This document shows, piece after piece, positions 16,195-57,776 of a stretch of 64,000 nucleotides of DNA. The notes below the pieces were generated by a model. It saw only the letters and a list, made by a program, of their open reading frames with translations. It made no database searches and was not told the DNA's origin. This stretch comes from Sphingomonas swuensis (GTDB taxonomy: Bacteria > Pseudomonadota > Alphaproteobacteria > Sphingomonadales > Sphingomonadaceae). The stretch lies in contig NZ_BAABBQ010000001.1 of NCBI RefSeq assembly GCF_039538045.1, positions 2,130,001 through 2,194,000 of the forward strand, written 5' to 3'. Positions within the stretch are counted from its first letter, which is position 1. The number at the start of each line of letters is the position of its first letter. The translations under genes and the position numbers were made by a program.

Positions 16195-16602
16195 TCAACC
16201 CGCCGGCTCTTGCTCGATCATATCGATGACGGCGCAGTGGGGCACGTGATCGCCAGAGCAGCGGTTTATGGCCGAGGCGAGCAGCTCCTCCAAGCGCGCG
16301 AGATCCACCATTTTGCGGCGCACAATCGCAAGATGTTGCGAGGCGATCTCCCGCACCTCGTCGCAACATGCGTCAGTCGGGCCCCCAAGGGCGAGGATCC
16401 CGCGCACCTCGTCCGGAGTAAAACCAAGTTCGCGGGCTCGCCGGATGAACCCCAGCGCCCGCAGATGGTCGTCACCATAGATCCGGTGACCGCCCTCGGT
16501 GCGGGGCGGGGACGCCACCAGTCCCACCTTTTCGAAGTAGCGTATCGTCTCGATGTTCACGCCCGTCCTGCGGGAGAGCTGGCCGATCGTGAAACTCGCC
16601 AT
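16195..16602 (-). CDS. MerR family metal-responsive regulator
   Basis: 135 aa: winged helix-turn-helix FTIGQLSRRTGVNIETIRYF, dimer helix MVDLARLEELL, and metal-type cysteines C80, C115 and C123. The 35-residue C80-C115 spacing equals that of MerR and ZntR, and the RCSGDHVPHC loop is one residue shorter than in MerR. It diverges from the MerT-like gene over a shared operator at 16618-16634. Hg(II), or Pb/Cd/Zn, is the likely inducer. Confidence 0.88.
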   Translation of the reverse strand: MASFTIGQLSRRTGVNIETIRYFEKVGLVASPPRTEGGHRIYGDDHLRALGFIRRARELGFTPDEVRGILALGGPTDACCDEVREIASQHLAIVRRKMVDLARLEELLASAINRCSGDHVPHCAVIDMIEQEPAG

Positions 16603-16612
16603 CAGATGTCGC

Positions 16613-16643
16613 TTGATCCTGTAGTGACTACAGGATGCATATA
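16613..16643 (+). promoter_or_regulatory. MerR-type promoter/operator with 19-bp spacer
   Basis: -35 TTGATC (16613-16618), 19-bp spacer and -10 CATATA (16638-16643). The spacer holds the perfect palindrome CCTGTAG-TGA-CTACAGG (16618-16634). The over-long spacer with a centred dyad is diagnostic of MerR-controlled promoters, here driving the MerT-like gene and probably autoregulating merR. Confidence 0.85.
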
Positions 16644-16670
16644 GCAGGGAATCGGCTTGGAGAAGAAACC

Positions 16671-17087
16671 TTGAGTACGGAACACACGATGCGCCCGGGG
16701 GTCGATGACGGCTCGGCCATTAGGACGAACGCGGATCGGGGCGTGGCAGCGCTGGGGACCATGGCGAGCCTTGCAGCCCTGTTCTCAGCGGCTGCCTGTT
16801 GCATCCTGCCGCTCGGGCTTGCGGCAATCGGCGTCGGTTCGGCCGGCCTTTCGTCCTTCGTGCCATTCCACTGGCCTCTGACGATCGCCGCGATTGTCGC
16901 GGTCGCCGCAGGATGGATCGTGCATCTCCGCAAGCGCCAAGCGTGCGCGCGGGATGCCACCTGCATGACACCGCCGCCGGCGAAGAGCACCTTCATTCTC
17001 CTCTCCGTGGCGACCGTTTTCGTGACGATCTCGGCGTGCTGGGGTTTCATAGAGGCGCCGCTCATGCGGATGCTCGGAGGCGCGTGA
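16671..17087 (+). CDS. MerT-like mercuric/metal transport membrane protein
   Basis: 138 aa with three hydrophobic helices. The first contains the paired cysteines of MerT in AACCILPLGLAAIGVG; a cytoplasmic loop has two more cysteines (RQACARDATCM), as MerT does. A TTG start at 16671 fits GGAGAAG five bases upstream; ATG 16689 is the alternative. It imports Hg(II) in classical mer operons, but no merA or merP is adjacent. Confidence 0.78.
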   Translation: MSTEHTMRPGVDDGSAIRTNADRGVAALGTMASLAALFSAAACCILPLGLAAIGVGSAGLSSFVPFHWPLTIAAIVAVAAGWIVHLRKRQACARDATCMTPPPAKSTFILLSVATVFVTISACWGFIEAPLMRMLGGA

Positions 17088-26321: not shown

Positions 26322-26807
26322 ATGAAGCATGCATTTTTCCTCAGCGTCGCACTGCTCGTTGCATCCCCAGCGGTTGCTCAACCCAGTCAAGCGCTGCCGG
26401 CCGCAGCCCAGCGCGCTGAAATCGCGGCAATCAAGACCGTTCTTGCGCAGTACAAGGCTGCGATCGAGAAATTGGACGCGACAAACACCGAGCGCTTGTT
26501 CGCGAAGGACTCCACCATCTTCGAGACAGGTGGTGTGGAGGGTACATACGCCAACTACCTTGCGCATCACCTTGGTCCGGAGCTGCACGAGTTCAGGTTA
26601 TTTCGTTTCTCAGACTACAAGGTCGACGTTCACCTGATTGGACCAGCGGCAGCCCACGCCATTGAGACATACAACTATCGCATCGAGACAAAGAGCGGTG
26701 AAATTGCCGAGCGACGCGGTGTAGCAACGAGCGTGCTGAAGAAGATCGGTGGGCAGTGGAAGATTGTCTCCATGCACAACTCCGCTCGCAAGCCGAGGGC
26801 ATCATGA
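26322..26807 (+). CDS. NTF2-like (SnoaL/DUF4440) periplasmic protein
   Basis: 161 aa with a signal peptide (FFLSVALLVASPAVAQ) and an NTF2-like fold: AIKTVLAQYKAAIEKLD, then FETGGVEGTYANYLAHHL and the closing GGQWKIVSMHNSAR. Such proteins are frequent in copper islands; the ligand is unknown. GAGGAGAGG precedes the ATG. Confidence 0.8.
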   Translation: MKHAFFLSVALLVASPAVAQPSQALPAAAQRAEIAAIKTVLAQYKAAIEKLDATNTERLFAKDSTIFETGGVEGTYANYLAHHLGPELHEFRLFRFSDYKVDVHLIGPAAAHAIETYNYRIETKSGEIAERRGVATSVLKKIGGQWKIVSMHNSARKPRAS

Positions 26808-52385: not shown

Positions 52386-54350
52386 CTACTGGGTCACAAG
52401 TCTTCTCAGATCCTCAATCTTTGTCTCAATCTCTGCGTCCGAGACATCCACCTGCAGCTTCTCCTGCACGAAGTGCAGTCTAGCCTCATTCTCGCGGACG
52501 ATCTCTGCCCAGGTCTTGACCCAGAACTTGAAGTTATCGCCGTAGAGGAACAGCCCTGGTGGGCGATCGGCTTGGTGAATCCTCCCAGCGACTTCTGGCT
52601 CGTACTCGCTGGCCACCAAGAAGAAGTTCCACGTGGTGTCAGTGTGGAGAAACTCGGGCTCCGACCTAATTGCGGTGACGTAATCCTCGACTTGATCGAG
52701 TTCCTTGCGACCGAGCTTCAGCGACGGGCGCTTGAGCTCGATGAGCAGGAATTCGCGCTTGCCAGCGTCGGAGTGTGGCACTGACCTGCCGAGGAACACG
52801 TCAACTCGCGCCACTGAGCCGTTCTTCTTCGTGACCTTCCTCCCATTGCGTTTTTGGCCGAGATCCTCCGCCACGCGGTTCATGACCTTGCTCAGGCCGG
52901 ACTCGCCCATGGTGATGTGAAATCGCTCGCCGAAGAGCCATGTATGGTCGCGAATCAGCGCGTCGAGTTCGCCCCGTTCCCTCACCTTCTGCCGGTGCCT
53001 CGGGTCGAAGATGATACCTTTCAGAACTTCGAGCGCGGTAACCCGGTCCGAGATCAGGCTCGATGCACCGATGATGTTGCCCAGCTCGGTCTTCTTGAGA
53101 AGCGAGGAGAATTCCGACTGCTTGCCCTTTGGCAGGTTCACAACGGCCTTCAGGATGGTCGAAAGGTCGTCGGGATTACGCTTGATAGCCTCCTTGAGCA
53201 GCGTCAGCGTCATCTTCTTCAGCGACGCTTCCGCCTTGGAAAAATCGCGGGAATGTGAATTGATGGCATAGGTGGCGATGTCGAAGACCTGACGCTCTCG
53301 CCGTTCGATCTGGTCACGCGGCTCGCCCTCATAGGGGTATGCGCCCTGGTCCTTCAGATCTTGAATAATGCCGAGGGATTGTTCGCTGAGCCGAGCGCGG
53401 AAATACTCGGACAAAGCCTCCCGAATATGTGACAGGACGACAACGAAATCTGGCTCGTTGAGGTCGTCGAGCTCCAGCAAGTTATGGTCGGCGACTTCTT
53501 GGAAATAGGCGCTGTACGCATAAGCCGAAAACTCAAAACCGGGCGCGGTGACATGCGCCGGCTGCGATCCCAGCACGATACCGTCTTCGCCCCCGAAATG
53601 GATCTGACGGGTGTCCGTGGCCGCCTTCCACTCGATGACCTTCACCTTGAGGTCGTTGATCGTCCGATCTGAAAGCTGGACGATTAAGGCCGGAAGGTCC
53701 TCGCACCGCCGGATGGTCAGGTTCGGATCGACCTTGAAGCCGTTGTACCAGATCTCGACGTTTGGGTACTGCAGCACGTAGGGCGCAAATAGCGTGCTGA
53801 ACCTGCTGAATGCCTCGGTGCTGGATAGCTCGTCGAACGTGCTCTTCAACATTGTAAGCACTACGCTTGTGCCGGGCGTTTCGGCAAATGGGCTCTCTGC
53901 CTCGCTCACCTCGCAGCGCTCTAGGGATTTCGAGTGTATCTCGATCGCTCGCGACGTTAGCGGCCCCTCTTCCGCACCCGGCACGATCTCCCTCGTGGTG
54001 GAGAACCACCGGGCGCGCTGCGCAAGCGAGAAGAAGCGAAGGCGTCCCCGCCCTTCCTTACCGTGTATGGCTCGGCCTAGGTTTGACGTACGGTGTGCAT
54101 CCCGTTTCCAGCTTGCGCCGAGATTGCCGAAGTCGACTTCTGCATGCTGAGCGCTGATGCCGGTTCCGTCGTCGACAATGCGGATCGCTGCCAGACCACC
54201 TAGATCGTTGCGCTCAAGCTGGATCTCGACCTTGCTGGCGTCGGCATCAAGGGCATTCCAAACGAACTCAGAAAGCGCCCGGAGCGGATCGCGGGTCGCC
54301 GCGTCCCGTTCCAAGAAATCTTGCTTCGCTTGAAGGTTGAGGGTCGTCAT
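52386..54350 (-). CDS. GHKL ATPase fused to PD-(D/E)XK nuclease
   Basis: 654 aa. N-terminal GHKL (Hsp90/MORC-like) ATPase: N-box LSEFVWNALDADASKV, G1 VDDGTGIS and G2 GKEGRGRLRFF. The C-terminal about 170 residues carry a nuclease core with Asp in ARVDVFLG and E-x-K in FLLIELKRPSLKLG, as in Shedu-type (DUF4263) proteins. The architecture suggests ATP-gated DNA cleavage in phage or plasmid defence. An ATG at 54350 starts the ATPase; a TTG at 54374 is the alternative. Confidence 0.82.
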   Translation of the reverse strand: MTTLNLQAKQDFLERDAATRDPLRALSEFVWNALDADASKVEIQLERNDLGGLAAIRIVDDGTGISAQHAEVDFGNLGASWKRDAHRTSNLGRAIHGKEGRGRLRFFSLAQRARWFSTTREIVPGAEEGPLTSRAIEIHSKSLERCEVSEAESPFAETPGTSVVLTMLKSTFDELSSTEAFSRFSTLFAPYVLQYPNVEIWYNGFKVDPNLTIRRCEDLPALIVQLSDRTINDLKVKVIEWKAATDTRQIHFGGEDGIVLGSQPAHVTAPGFEFSAYAYSAYFQEVADHNLLELDDLNEPDFVVVLSHIREALSEYFRARLSEQSLGIIQDLKDQGAYPYEGEPRDQIERRERQVFDIATYAINSHSRDFSKAEASLKKMTLTLLKEAIKRNPDDLSTILKAVVNLPKGKQSEFSSLLKKTELGNIIGASSLISDRVTALEVLKGIIFDPRHRQKVRERGELDALIRDHTWLFGERFHITMGESGLSKVMNRVAEDLGQKRNGRKVTKKNGSVARVDVFLGRSVPHSDAGKREFLLIELKRPSLKLGRKELDQVEDYVTAIRSEPEFLHTDTTWNFFLVASEYEPEVAGRIHQADRPPGLFLYGDNFKFWVKTWAEIVRENEARLHFVQEKLQVDVSDAEIETKIEDLRRLVTQ

Positions 54351-54413
54351 GGACTCTGGCCGCTGTTTCACCAAGAAACCTAGCCCCGAGGCCTGCGGAA
54401 AGCGATACGCACT

Positions 54414-55123
54414 TCAGCCTTGCAGAAGATCTCGCAAGGTTTGCTGAAGGCGTTCCCCAAGCCGAAGGTGTCGAGCTTGCAACCCGGCGGCTTCGGCTGC
54501 GACAACGTCGTTCTTCAGCGAGTTCCCCACCATCAGGACCTCCGAAGGTTCTACAGCTAAGCGCTTGCATGTCTCTTCATAGAAGAGGGCTGATGGCTTG
54601 GCCGAGCCTACCTCAAAGGAAAGAATCTGGACGTCGACCAGACTGCCCAGCCAGTTTTTGAGTGGCTCGGAGTACGGCAGGGCGAGGTGGATGCGACCGC
54701 AAGGCGATATCCCAGGTCACGCAAATGCTGCAGCGCTTCGATTGCACCTGGCAAAGGCTGAACGGAGGCGAGTTCATTCAGCAGATCGGCTTCGAGTTTT
54801 TCCAGTATGCCAGCCCGAAGTTCAATCCGAGGCATGTTGCGCTCGACAACATCCCTAAGCGACATGGGCAAAGTCATCGGTGACGGGTCCAAGCGGCCGC
54901 CAGCAAGTGCCGCGAGCTGCTGATAGGGCCCTCTCCTGTTCGTGATCGTCAGCAGCGTGTCGTAGCAGTCGAATGCAATTGCTTGTGGCCGCCAGTCGAG
55001 GGTTCGCCGTTGGGCGATTGGCGGTCTGTCAGTTGAGTTCGGTATAGGGATTTCGAAGATGTCCTTCCGGGCGAGGTATTGCCCATTGGCAGCTTGCGCG
55101 TCGACCGTCTGCCTTCCCCTCAC
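54414..55123 (-). pseudogene. HAD-family hydrolase broken by a one-base frameshift
   Basis: The first part encodes IAFDCYDTLLTITNRRG (HAD motif I) to ALQHLRDLGYRLAVAS. The frame then breaks near 54688, and the sequence continues in another frame as ALPYSEPLKNWLGSLV, VGSAKPSALFYEETC and VLMVGNSLKNDVVAAEAAGL (motifs III/IV). One inserted A would restore ASNLALPY, so a single-base deletion or an assembly error is the likely cause. The GTG at 55123 is the furthest start; the true one is uncertain. Confidence 0.75.
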
Positions 55124-55169: not shown

Positions 55170-55937
55170 CTATTGATCGAAACGGTGTTCAATCAGGACG
55201 TTGAAGCCAGCCGCGAGCGCTGAGTTCGGCTCATGTGTGATTTGGGCCAGCAAGTACGCCATTGCCTCGGAGAGCAGGGAAATGGCCACAGGCTGAGAGG
55301 GGTCGAATCCAGCCCGGACGGTGGCGATGCTCGACACCCGCCCCCCGAGCCGTTCCCGCAACTGCTCTCTTGCAGCACCTTCGTCGGTTGCCATCGTTGC
55401 GAAGAATACGTGAAGAACCCCGTCCTGACCCTGCTCAGCGTACGTCGCCGTGAAGAGTGTCGGTCCCCACTGCATCAGCGCAATGTCATCCCGTTTGAGG
55501 CTGCGGTCAGCATGTCGGATCACGATCGGAGCTTCGTCATCGCAGTCCGAAGAGGAAAGCAGCTCAGACATGTCCTGCGGCGCCATGTCATAAACAGCTG
55601 TTGCTCCATGCAGAACGATCGCCCGCATGAACATGGTGCGATCCACGCACGCAGTCAGTGCGTTGCGACCACCGAACAGGCTCCTGGGTGCCGCCATCCA
55701 GGCGGCGGGGTCATAGGACGAACGTTCCCGAGCGAAGCGTGAGCCGGTCTCCGCCGCAACGAATACCAGTCGACCGAGCTGGCGATGCGTCAGGGTAATC
55801 CTGATGTCGCTGGGGGAATCTGGCTCGAGCGGATCGCAGAAAGAGATGCTTTGGACATCGCTCTCATGATGCTGACGCACTCGCGCTGGATCAAAAGGCG
55901 CCATCGCCGAGGCCGGGCAATCAATCCAATCTTGCAT
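55170..55937 (-). CDS. Unknown protein under a MerR-type box
   Basis: 255 aa, soluble, acidic; no signal peptide. The N-terminus has MQDWIDCPASAMAPFDPARV and the middle ITLTHRQLGRLVFVAAETG; the C-terminal third (ISLLSEAMAYLLAQITHEPN) looks helical. No family recognised. A near-palindromic MerR-type operator lies 53 bp upstream, shared in type with the antitoxin-like gene behind it. Confidence 0.65.
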   Translation of the reverse strand: MQDWIDCPASAMAPFDPARVRQHHESDVQSISFCDPLEPDSPSDIRITLTHRQLGRLVFVAAETGSRFARERSSYDPAAWMAAPRSLFGGRNALTACVDRTMFMRAIVLHGATAVYDMAPQDMSELLSSSDCDDEAPIVIRHADRSLKRDDIALMQWGPTLFTATYAEQGQDGVLHVFFATMATDEGAAREQLRERLGGRVSSIATVRAGFDPSQPVAISLLSEAMAYLLAQITHEPNSALAAGFNVLIEHRFDQ

Positions 55938-55989
55938 CCTATGCTCCCTGTCTGACCGCAATCGAACGGCCGCAGACGAAGGTAGGTTA

Positions 55990-56010
55990 ACCTTAAAGTA
56001 ACTACAAGGT
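55990..56010 (-). promoter_or_regulatory. MerR-type operator 1
   Basis: On the minus strand ACCTTGTAGTTACTTTAAGGT, a 21-base dyad with two mismatched pairs. It follows TAAACC in the -35 position. The 13-mer TAAACCTTGTAGT is identical in operator 2 at 56464-56490. No strong -10 is visible (TAACCT at 18 bp). Confidence 0.6.
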
Positions 56011-56047
56011 TTACAGGGTGAGCATTATGAGCGCCACCATCATGGTC

Positions 56048-56428
56048 TTATTGGCATTGGGCTTCGAGGTACTCGGCTAGCATGCGCAGGACGTCTAAAT
56101 GGCCGGTTGTAAGGGTTTCGATTGCCGAGCGCCCCTCGAACATCGGCACCTTCCCCGGCGAACGCATCCACTGGGCCGCGCGACCTTCGGCAGGTAAGAG
56201 CGTGTTTATCGCCCGGTAGATCCGGAATATGTATGAAAGTCTGAGAAGAGTGTCCTCGCTGAGCGGAGGGACATGATCTGCGGCCGATACAACCGATCTA
56301 TCATTCAGATTCAGGCTCAAAATGGCTGTCTGCTCAGCCTCGTTCAAACCCCAACCTTCAGCGATTCGGCCGAATGTTCGCAGTCCGGCTCCACTGAGAT
56401 CGCGGTGTGTCCCTCGCTTGATCACCAT
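56048..56428 (-). CDS. MbcA/ParS/Xre antitoxin family protein, orphan
   Basis: 126 aa: N-terminal Xre-like helical region (GLRTFGRIAEGWGLNEAEQT), then the toxin-binding domain AAQWMRSPGKVPMFEGRSAIETL and VLRMLAEYLEAQC. Such antitoxins normally sit beside a RES NAD-degrading toxin; none is adjacent. The gene lies directly downstream of a metal-type MerR operator, which is unexpected for an antitoxin. Confidence 0.78.
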   Translation of the reverse strand: MVIKRGTHRDLSGAGLRTFGRIAEGWGLNEAEQTAILSLNLNDRSVVSAADHVPPLSEDTLLRLSYIFRIYRAINTLLPAEGRAAQWMRSPGKVPMFEGRSAIETLTTGHLDVLRMLAEYLEAQCQ

Positions 56429-56463
56429 GTCCCTGCTCGATGAATGGAGCTGCGAAACATAGA

Positions 56464-56490
56464 AAAGGTTATAGCGACTACAAGGTTTAA
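56464..56490 (-). promoter_or_regulatory. MerR-type operator 2
   Basis: Minus strand TAAACCTTGTAGTCGCTATAACC: the dyad TTGTAG-TCG-CTATAA has one mismatched pair and follows a TAAACC -35-like hexamer; TTCTAT at 19 bp could be the -10. It ends 36 bp before the antitoxin-like start. Confidence 0.6.
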
Positions 56491-56493
56491 GTG

Positions 56494-56913
56494 CTAAGCG
56501 TGGTCATCCATGCATTGCTCGTGATCAGCCAATGAAAGCATGATCCGGCAATCTGAAATCTGCCCACCTCTACACTGCGAGATCATGCGCTTGAGCTCGG
56601 CCTGTAGCTTAGTGAGCTGCCCAATCTTTCGTTTGACGGCCGTAAGTTGCTGGCTTGCGATCCGGTCGGCCTCACTGCAATCTTGGTCCGGGGATTCCGA
56701 TAACTCGAGCAGCGACCGAATATCTGCGATCTCAAAACCGAGGCCTCTCGCGTGGCGAATGAACGTCAGGCGTTCAACGTCTCGGACATCGTAGTTACGG
56801 TAGTTTCCGTCTGTCCGCCCGGCCTTCGGAAGAAGGCCAATTCGTTCGTAATAGCGGATGGTTTCCGTGTTCGTCCCGGTCGCCTTTCCGAGCTGACCGA
56901 TTTTCAATGCCAT
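56494..56913 (-). CDS. MerR-family Cd/Zn/Pb-responsive regulator (CadR/ZntR-like)
   Basis: 139 aa: LKIGQLGKATGTNTETIRYYERIGLLP winged helix (residues 3-29) and metal cysteines in DQDCSEAD and SQCRGGQISDC. The three-cysteine pattern with an extended C-terminal loop (DHEQCMDDH) fits CadR/PbrR/ZntR. It diverges from the cation-efflux gene at 57138 with a matching operator, and two more similar sites lie downstream. Confidence 0.88.
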   Translation of the reverse strand: MALKIGQLGKATGTNTETIRYYERIGLLPKAGRTDGNYRNYDVRDVERLTFIRHARGLGFEIADIRSLLELSESPDQDCSEADRIASQQLTAVKRKIGQLTKLQAELKRMISQCRGGQISDCRIMLSLADHEQCMDDHA

Positions 56914-57076
56914 GTCAGTGTCCCCTCGGACCGGCGATAAAACGCCCAGCCCAAGTCCGTCGACTCATTCCTTGCTGAATCTTGGCTTCAGGGTTTCACG
57001 ATCTCCAACGCATCATCGAAATGCCCGAGTGTCAGCCTTGGCGTTGATGAAGCGGTGCCGACGTTCGGATCGGCGC

Positions 57077-57107
57077 TTGACCCTGTACTTGCTACAAGGT
57101 CCATAAA
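57077..57107 (+). promoter_or_regulatory. MerR-type promoter of the cation-efflux gene
   Basis: TTGACC (57077-57082), 19-bp spacer with the dyad CCTGTACTTGCTACAAGG (one mismatch in the arms), -10 CATAAA (57102-57107). A standard MerR-type over-spaced promoter 30 bp before the start codon. Confidence 0.8.
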
Positions 57108-57137
57108 CCTATCACACCGATTCGGTCGAGGTGACAA

Positions 57138-57776
57138 ATGGCTTGCAATCACTGTCCGTCGGAGGTGTCCAACGCGGCGACCGATGCGCTCTGGCGTCAA
57201 GCGCTGTGGATTGCACTGGCGGTAAATGGCGGGATGTTTGCCATCGAGCTTATCGCCGGCGTCATGGCCGACAGCAAGTCGCTTCAGGCCGATGCGCTCG
57301 ACTTCTTTTCGGACGCCGCCAATTACGCCATATCGCTCGGCGTTGCGGGTATGGCGCTCGCCTGGCGCGCGCGTGCCGCCCTCTTCAAGGGCATCACCCT
57401 CCTTCTGCTCGGCGCTTACGTGGTCACCGCCGTCGTCGTTGCTGCCTTGCAGGGGTCCAGTCCCGAACCATTCGTCATGGGCGGCGTCGGCATCGCGGCG
57501 CTCGTGGCCAACATCGCTGTCGCTGTGATGCTGTTCCGCTGGCGTTCGGGTGATGCCAACATGCAGTCCGTCTGGATCTGCAGCCGCAACGACGCGATCG
57601 CGAATATAGCGGTTGTGGCCGCCGCAGTGGGGGTATTCGGAAGCGGCACGCGGTGGCCTGATCTGATCGTGGCTGGCTTGATGGCGGCCCTCAGTTTTGC
57701 CGGCGGCTGGAAGATCGTGCGGCTCGCAATGGCGGAGCTTCGAACGGCTTCGACCCAAGCTGCAGTGCACCCGTAA
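57138..57776 (+). CDS. Cation diffusion facilitator-type metal efflux transporter
   Basis: 212 aa: Cys/His N-terminus (MACNHCPSEV), six hydrophobic helices with the conserved DALDFFSDAANY (metal-binding Asp pair) and SRNDAIANIAVV. It lacks the usual cytoplasmic C-terminal domain, as in the short MerR-linked CDF family. It exports Zn/Cd/Co. GAGGTG precedes the ATG. Confidence 0.9.
   Translation: MACNHCPSEVSNAATDALWRQALWIALAVNGGMFAIELIAGVMADSKSLQADALDFFSDAANYAISLGVAGMALAWRARAALFKGITLLLLGAYVVTAVVVAALQGSSPEPFVMGGVGIAALVANIAVAVMLFRWRSGDANMQSVWICSRNDAIANIAVVAAAVGVFGSGTRWPDLIVAGLMAALSFAGGWKIVRLAMAELRTASTQAAVHP

Follow-up and report, generated by a model that had tools for sequence, protein, structure and literature searches.

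CadR-type boxes before two antitoxin-like genes beside a cation-efflux gene of Sphingomonas swuensis

The usual picture of a MerR metal regulon is that of a pump together with its regulator. A locus of Sphingomonas swuensis raises the question of whether such a regulator may also read operators that lie in front of antitoxin-like genes. The locus is located in a stretch of 64,000 nucleotides (positions 2,130,001 to 2,194,000 of NZ_BAABBQ010000001.1; hereafter the window, whose numbering is used unless a genome or locus is named), which is part of a one-contig, 2.79-Mb chromosome. Here, the minus-strand gene of a CadR-like MerR regulator (139 amino acids (aa), 56494..56913) is followed on the plus strand by a CDF cation-efflux gene (57138..57776) and adjoined on its other side by two minus-strand genes, which encode an orphan Xre/MbcA/ParS-type antitoxin-like protein of 126 aa (56048..56428) and a 255-aa protein, U255 (55170..55937). 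A CadR-type box precedes the CDF gene (box C), the ParS-like gene (box P) and the U255 gene (box U). The chromosomal boxes, their conservation, the fold matches and the gene neighbourhoods were computed; judged on the sequence, the CadR-like regulator very probably reads the boxes before the two antitoxin-like genes.

The boxes and their candidate reader

Box C (57080..57100, plus strand) resides inside the MerR-type promoter of the CDF gene, where TTGACC (57077-57082) is separated by a 19-bp spacer from CATAAA. Box P (56466..56486) and box U (55990..56010), both on the minus strand, possess neither a TTG -35 nor a CATA-type -10 element, leaving C as the only one of the three with such a promoter. 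The original prediction had placed three sites of one MerR-like shape at 57077-57107, 56464-56490 and 55990-56010; all three are present at these positions and share the palindrome, and the likeness ends at the promoter, which U and P lack. The exact 13-mer said to be common to P and U was also recovered, at 56001-56013 and 56477-56489 and nowhere else in the 64 kb.

Within the window, ACCTTGTAGTNNCTNNAANGT finds six matches at up to three mismatches, where 0.08 are expected (100 shuffles); five of them come from the three sites, of which two match on both strands, and the sixth is a three-mismatch place at 26603-26623. With a scoring matrix derived from 11 boxes that other genomes carry in their CDF promoters, the p-values are 3.6e-10 at 57080, 3.2e-9 at 55990, 4.8e-9 at 16616 and 2.4e-8 at 56466, and the next-best place in the window reaches only 3.5e-5. 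In the whole genome, five places lie within three mismatches of ACCNTGTAGNNNCTACANGGT (C, P, U, 16616 and C1:232808), against four for its reversed control at the same looseness, so that the genome-wide count alone proves little and the weight rests on position and matrix score. The fourth box (16616-16636) is of the ordinary type, being preceded by TTG and having a CATATA element; it lies between a second MerR gene (16195-16602, minus strand) and a plus-strand gene (16635-17087) for a small membrane-protein-like product that by eye resembles a mercury transporter.

The regulator belongs to the MerR winged helix-turn-helix families (PF13411/PF09278/PF00376) and finds its best match among solved structures in CadR (6jgv_A, E 2.3e-27), with three cysteines aligned, which we take to be its metal site. 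In domains and cysteines it thus corresponds to the CadR subgroup, although it scores 117.6 bits against the CadR-PbrR equivalog TIGR02047, whose cut-off is 151.45, and 117.9 bits against the CueR equivalog (cut-off 147.4), with the cut-off of the ZntR equivalog likewise unreached. From its sequence the protein is therefore CadR-like and is not filed as CadR, which agrees with the CadR/ZntR-like regulator predicted for the middle of the locus. The 212-aa CDF protein matches PF01545 (E 2.3e-15) and reaches 63.2 bits against TIGR01297, below the cut-off of 82.35.

Conservation of the boxes in relatives

Among 71 genomes of the genus, 17 match a 3.3-kb query, the window's own included, and two others do so at full length, namely G315 and G316. 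G315 hardly differs from the window in this block (99.98% identity over 4.6 kb) and adds little. The G316 block, with 76.6% DNA identity over 4.6 kb, keeps the gene order and the boxes, and its proteins are 86% (CDF), 91% (MerR), 51% (ParS) and 79% (U255) identical to those of the window; its U255 is identical to P0002, which is named Sphingomonas kaistensis. In G316, box U is a perfect palindrome, box C has one mismatch and box P has two, at the same places as in the window. The U region (55985-56015) is 83.9% identical between the two genomes against 64.7% for its gap, whereas the contrast is small for the P region (68.6% against 61.2%). The U site of G316 is two positions away from the optimum AACCCTGTAGTTACTACAGGGTT given for Pseudomonas aeruginosa CadR (PMC12301328).

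The box was then sought upstream of 50 distinct U255 loci, from which duplicates had been removed and which include fragments and half-length forms, one with only 128 bp upstream. At up to three mismatches it is found in seven, other genera included: the window, G316, G229 (S. humi), G575/LY.26, G606/Leaf33, G563 and G599. The best box at the other 43 loci has at least five mismatches, with none at four, and the genus members G344 and G362 carry U255 relatives without a box. That U255 always stands under a CadR box is thereby rejected. A search for the same operator before antitoxin-like genes in related genomes had been suggested; it finds the operator at the six U boxes outside the window and at the P box of G316.

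In a tree computed from 29 full-length sequences, the seven box-bearers make up two starred clades (100/99 and 99/98), each wholly box-bearing (3/3 and 4/4). As a label on this tree, the box requires 2 changes versus 6.4 in shuffles, and 0 of 500 shuffles are as low; a single change is given by 0 of 200 bootstrap trees, while the starred branches alone are compatible with one origin. We reject chance as the source of the U boxes on the strength of the 7/50 loci and their clade distribution. The clades also have different neighbours: U255 is accompanied by ParS and HAD genes in the window, G316 and S. humi, and faces arsR-type genes, with the box in between, in G563, G599, LY.26 and Leaf33. In six U-box genomes, 10 of the 11 places with at most two mismatches lie at CadR-CDF, U255 or ParS genes, compared with two places for the reversed control.

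A CDF-linked MerR gene is present in all seven U-box genomes, its product being 45-49% identical to that of the window in the five besides G316. All seven encode the CadR-CDF pair (CDF neighbours identified by eye in these five), and the MerR-CDF promoter of each of the five has its own TTG-type box, with one mismatch in G229, two in G563, three in G599, four in G606 and two in G575. In G599, the CDF-linked merR overlaps at its end with a gene (L123:4760-5575) that has a weak, below-cut-off match to HEPN_RES_NTD1 (E 5.2e-4), on which we do not build.

At the loci examined elsewhere, the box accompanies the regulator and, in most cases, the pump. At up to one mismatch it occurs in 89 of 298 genomes of the family, as against one for the reversed control (by reading of the table). 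Among the matches listed, 29 new loci (L163-L191) were examined, a thirtieth being the U255 site of G229 (L127); a MerR relative is present at 29/29 and a CDF relative at 23/29, with no U255 or ParS relative at any of the 29. Nine further MerR-CDF loci from within the genus (L068-L076) likewise gave no U255 or ParS match inside the locus. One of these, in G311, carries a second TTG-type box (L075:2561-2581) just behind the MerR ORF (open reading frame), which is the position of box P in the window. Taken on its own, the U site is assigned to the CadR regulon with high confidence, and the P site probably belongs to it as well.

The antitoxin-like products and their neighbours

The ParS-like protein gives a fold match to Xre/MbcA/ParS antitoxins over its length. 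U255, for which no Pfam or NCBIfam match was found, appears by fold match to contain an MbcA/ParS-like toxin-binding-type domain at residues ~48-122, along with a C-terminal alpha/beta domain at residues ~155-255, and no helix-turn-helix is seen in the model. Its N-terminal half looks antitoxin-like. The family searches bear out what had been read from the sequence for the MerR, CDF and 126-aa genes and for U255 as a protein outside known families. The fold matches are to antitoxins of RES toxins (DUF2384: NatR, P. putida Xre, MbcA and VPA0769). Unlike in those systems, no RES neighbour is present here, U255 lacks a visible helix-turn-helix and bears an extra alpha/beta domain, and a metal-sensor box lies upstream.

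A RES family search found no RES gene adjoining the ParS-like gene, as had been predicted. The single RES found in the window genome (C1:1769706) lies near a different ParS-like match (C1:1770477). We considered whether the ParS-like gene is kept as the antitoxin of this RES and rejected it, given that the same search found no RES match in G315, which carries the nearly identical block. For comparison, 10 genes near ParS homologues were scanned; six are RES genes, which had been picked for size and position, and four have no family match.

Relatives of U255 occur in 20 of 298 genomes of the family, in 28 of 396 of the order and at 13 loci of a collection of named genomes, and the named ones come mostly from Sphingomonas, in addition to Sphingosinicella, Novosphingobium and Qipengyuania. 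In some genomes the two halves occur as separate genes (L063, L064, G273:C23), and many relatives match the N-terminal half only. In G006, G146 and G248, a half-length relative that has no box of its own shares its contig with a CadR-type box ~10-20 kb away, which hints at shared metal islands. In the arsR-facing clade, an RNase_T/DEDDh exonuclease gene directly follows U255, and this exonuclease was not found in G000 (the window genome), G316 or G229.

Read from the left, the minus-strand genes encode an ATPase-domain protein, a HAD-like product, U255, the ParS-like protein and the MerR regulator; on the plus strand, a His-rich ORF and genes that by eye are czcC/czcB-like come after the CDF gene. 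The HAD-hydrolase-like ORF adjoining U255 (54608..55123) diverges in its C-terminal part from a 191-aa S. humi relative, as does the G316 copy, and, from its sequence, seems to be decaying. The product of the ATPase-domain gene (52386-54374) is 662 aa long and combines a GHKL-ATPase domain with a weak HSDR_N-like part; G316 keeps the gene next to its block as well, with 95% aa identity over the compared part.

Mode of control at P and U

MerR-type promoters require a spacing of 19-20 bp (PMC9909328), which is not seen at U or P. When the hexamer ending in the ACC of the box is read in either orientation, TTG is present in 42/42 comparison boxes (13/13 CDF, 29/29 census) and in 0/9 U and P boxes (0/7 U, 0/2 P), a contrast between sites of common descent, to which no simple probability attaches. 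The comparison set extends beyond CDF promoters, two of the 29 census boxes lying before a 500-aa gene and one before an ATPase-like gene (by eye). The CATA-type -10 is less strict, occurring in 33/42 (23 census, 10 CDF). An 18-bp-spaced sigma70-like promoter that overlaps P in the window (9/12 positions) was dropped, being absent in G316. The proposal that the two leftward genes are induced by heavy metal finds no support in promoter shape, since the -35 TTG is missing from both boxes, as it is from all the homologous box-bearing loci that were examined.

At C, the metal-bound CadR-like protein would untwist the 19-bp promoter of the pump gene, as is known for CadR. At P and U, which have the box but not that promoter, we infer that the regulator could act instead as a repressor or roadblock on the ParS-like gene and U255, a role we favour tentatively, at somewhat less than even confidence. 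A 2006 comparative-genomics survey described one strong CadR palindrome without a 19/20-bp promoter and proposed lost regulation or repression/derepression (PMC1526738); that palindrome lies at the regulator's own divergon, whereas the present ones belong to antitoxin-like genes distinct from the regulator gene and occur in two clades of a single family. Binding of the regulator at P and U and the partner of the two antitoxin-like proteins are likewise matters of inference: the proteins would probably serve as adaptors that bind something else than a RES enzyme encoded nearby, and in one U255 branch the exonuclease encoded just downstream is a candidate partner. Taken as a whole, with one metal sensor reading C, P and U, a different mode of control at the latter two and adaptor-like products, this is our central explanation, held at an even balance.

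The closest alternative, in which CadR with metal switches on ParS and U255 like the pump from degenerate promoters, appears possible though rather unlikely. The zrd box of P. aeruginosa gave no predicted promoter as it stands, yet zrd is induced by Cd and Zn via CadR (PMC12301328), which speaks for activation and cautions against reading too much into the promoter geometry. The distance from box to start is moreover the same for the ParS and CDF genes in the window, at 38 nt each, but 43 and 38 in G316 (where the ParS start codon is uncertain), and the 0/9 against 42/42 for TTG speaks against activation. For the rest, P and U may be without functional consequence or serve as decoys. It is improbable that they are functionless relics, copied from CadR-CDF promoters or left by rearrangement of an island: the missing promoter elements, the seemingly decayed HAD ORF and the metal-gene setting would fit this, but box U is better kept than its gap (a contrast that is small for P), perfect in G316 and present throughout both clades. 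Least probable is another reader, such as ArsR where the box adjoins arsR-type genes or one of two further MerR relatives in the window genome, considering that the palindrome is that of CDF promoters, that all seven U-box genomes hold the CDF-linked MerR, and that no window or S. humi ORF examined resembles those ArsR proteins.

The P. aeruginosa CadR regulon (cadA and zrd; PMC12301328) is similar in its CadR-type regulator, its near-identical 11-1-11 palindrome and its second, non-transporter target. It differs in that the extra target is a zinc-ribbon protein rather than an antitoxin fold, and the present boxes by inspection lack the 19-bp promoter. Within the available open-licence literature, we found no description of CadR boxes in front of genes of the antitoxin type. 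We offer, as a conjecture with odds somewhat against it, that a MerR metal sensor recruited a family of toxin-less antitoxin-fold proteins (U255, joined in one branch by an orphan ParS-like protein), apparently twice, through operators without a twist-activated promoter, the pump being activated and the adaptors controlled in another mode. If true, such a recurrent target would connect proteins of the toxin-antitoxin type with the sensing of metals, and the lack of the 19-bp promoter at these boxes would allow one to ask directly whether a MerR protein serves as a plain repressor at some sites. The unannotated U255 family, in turn, gains a candidate fold and a candidate regulator.
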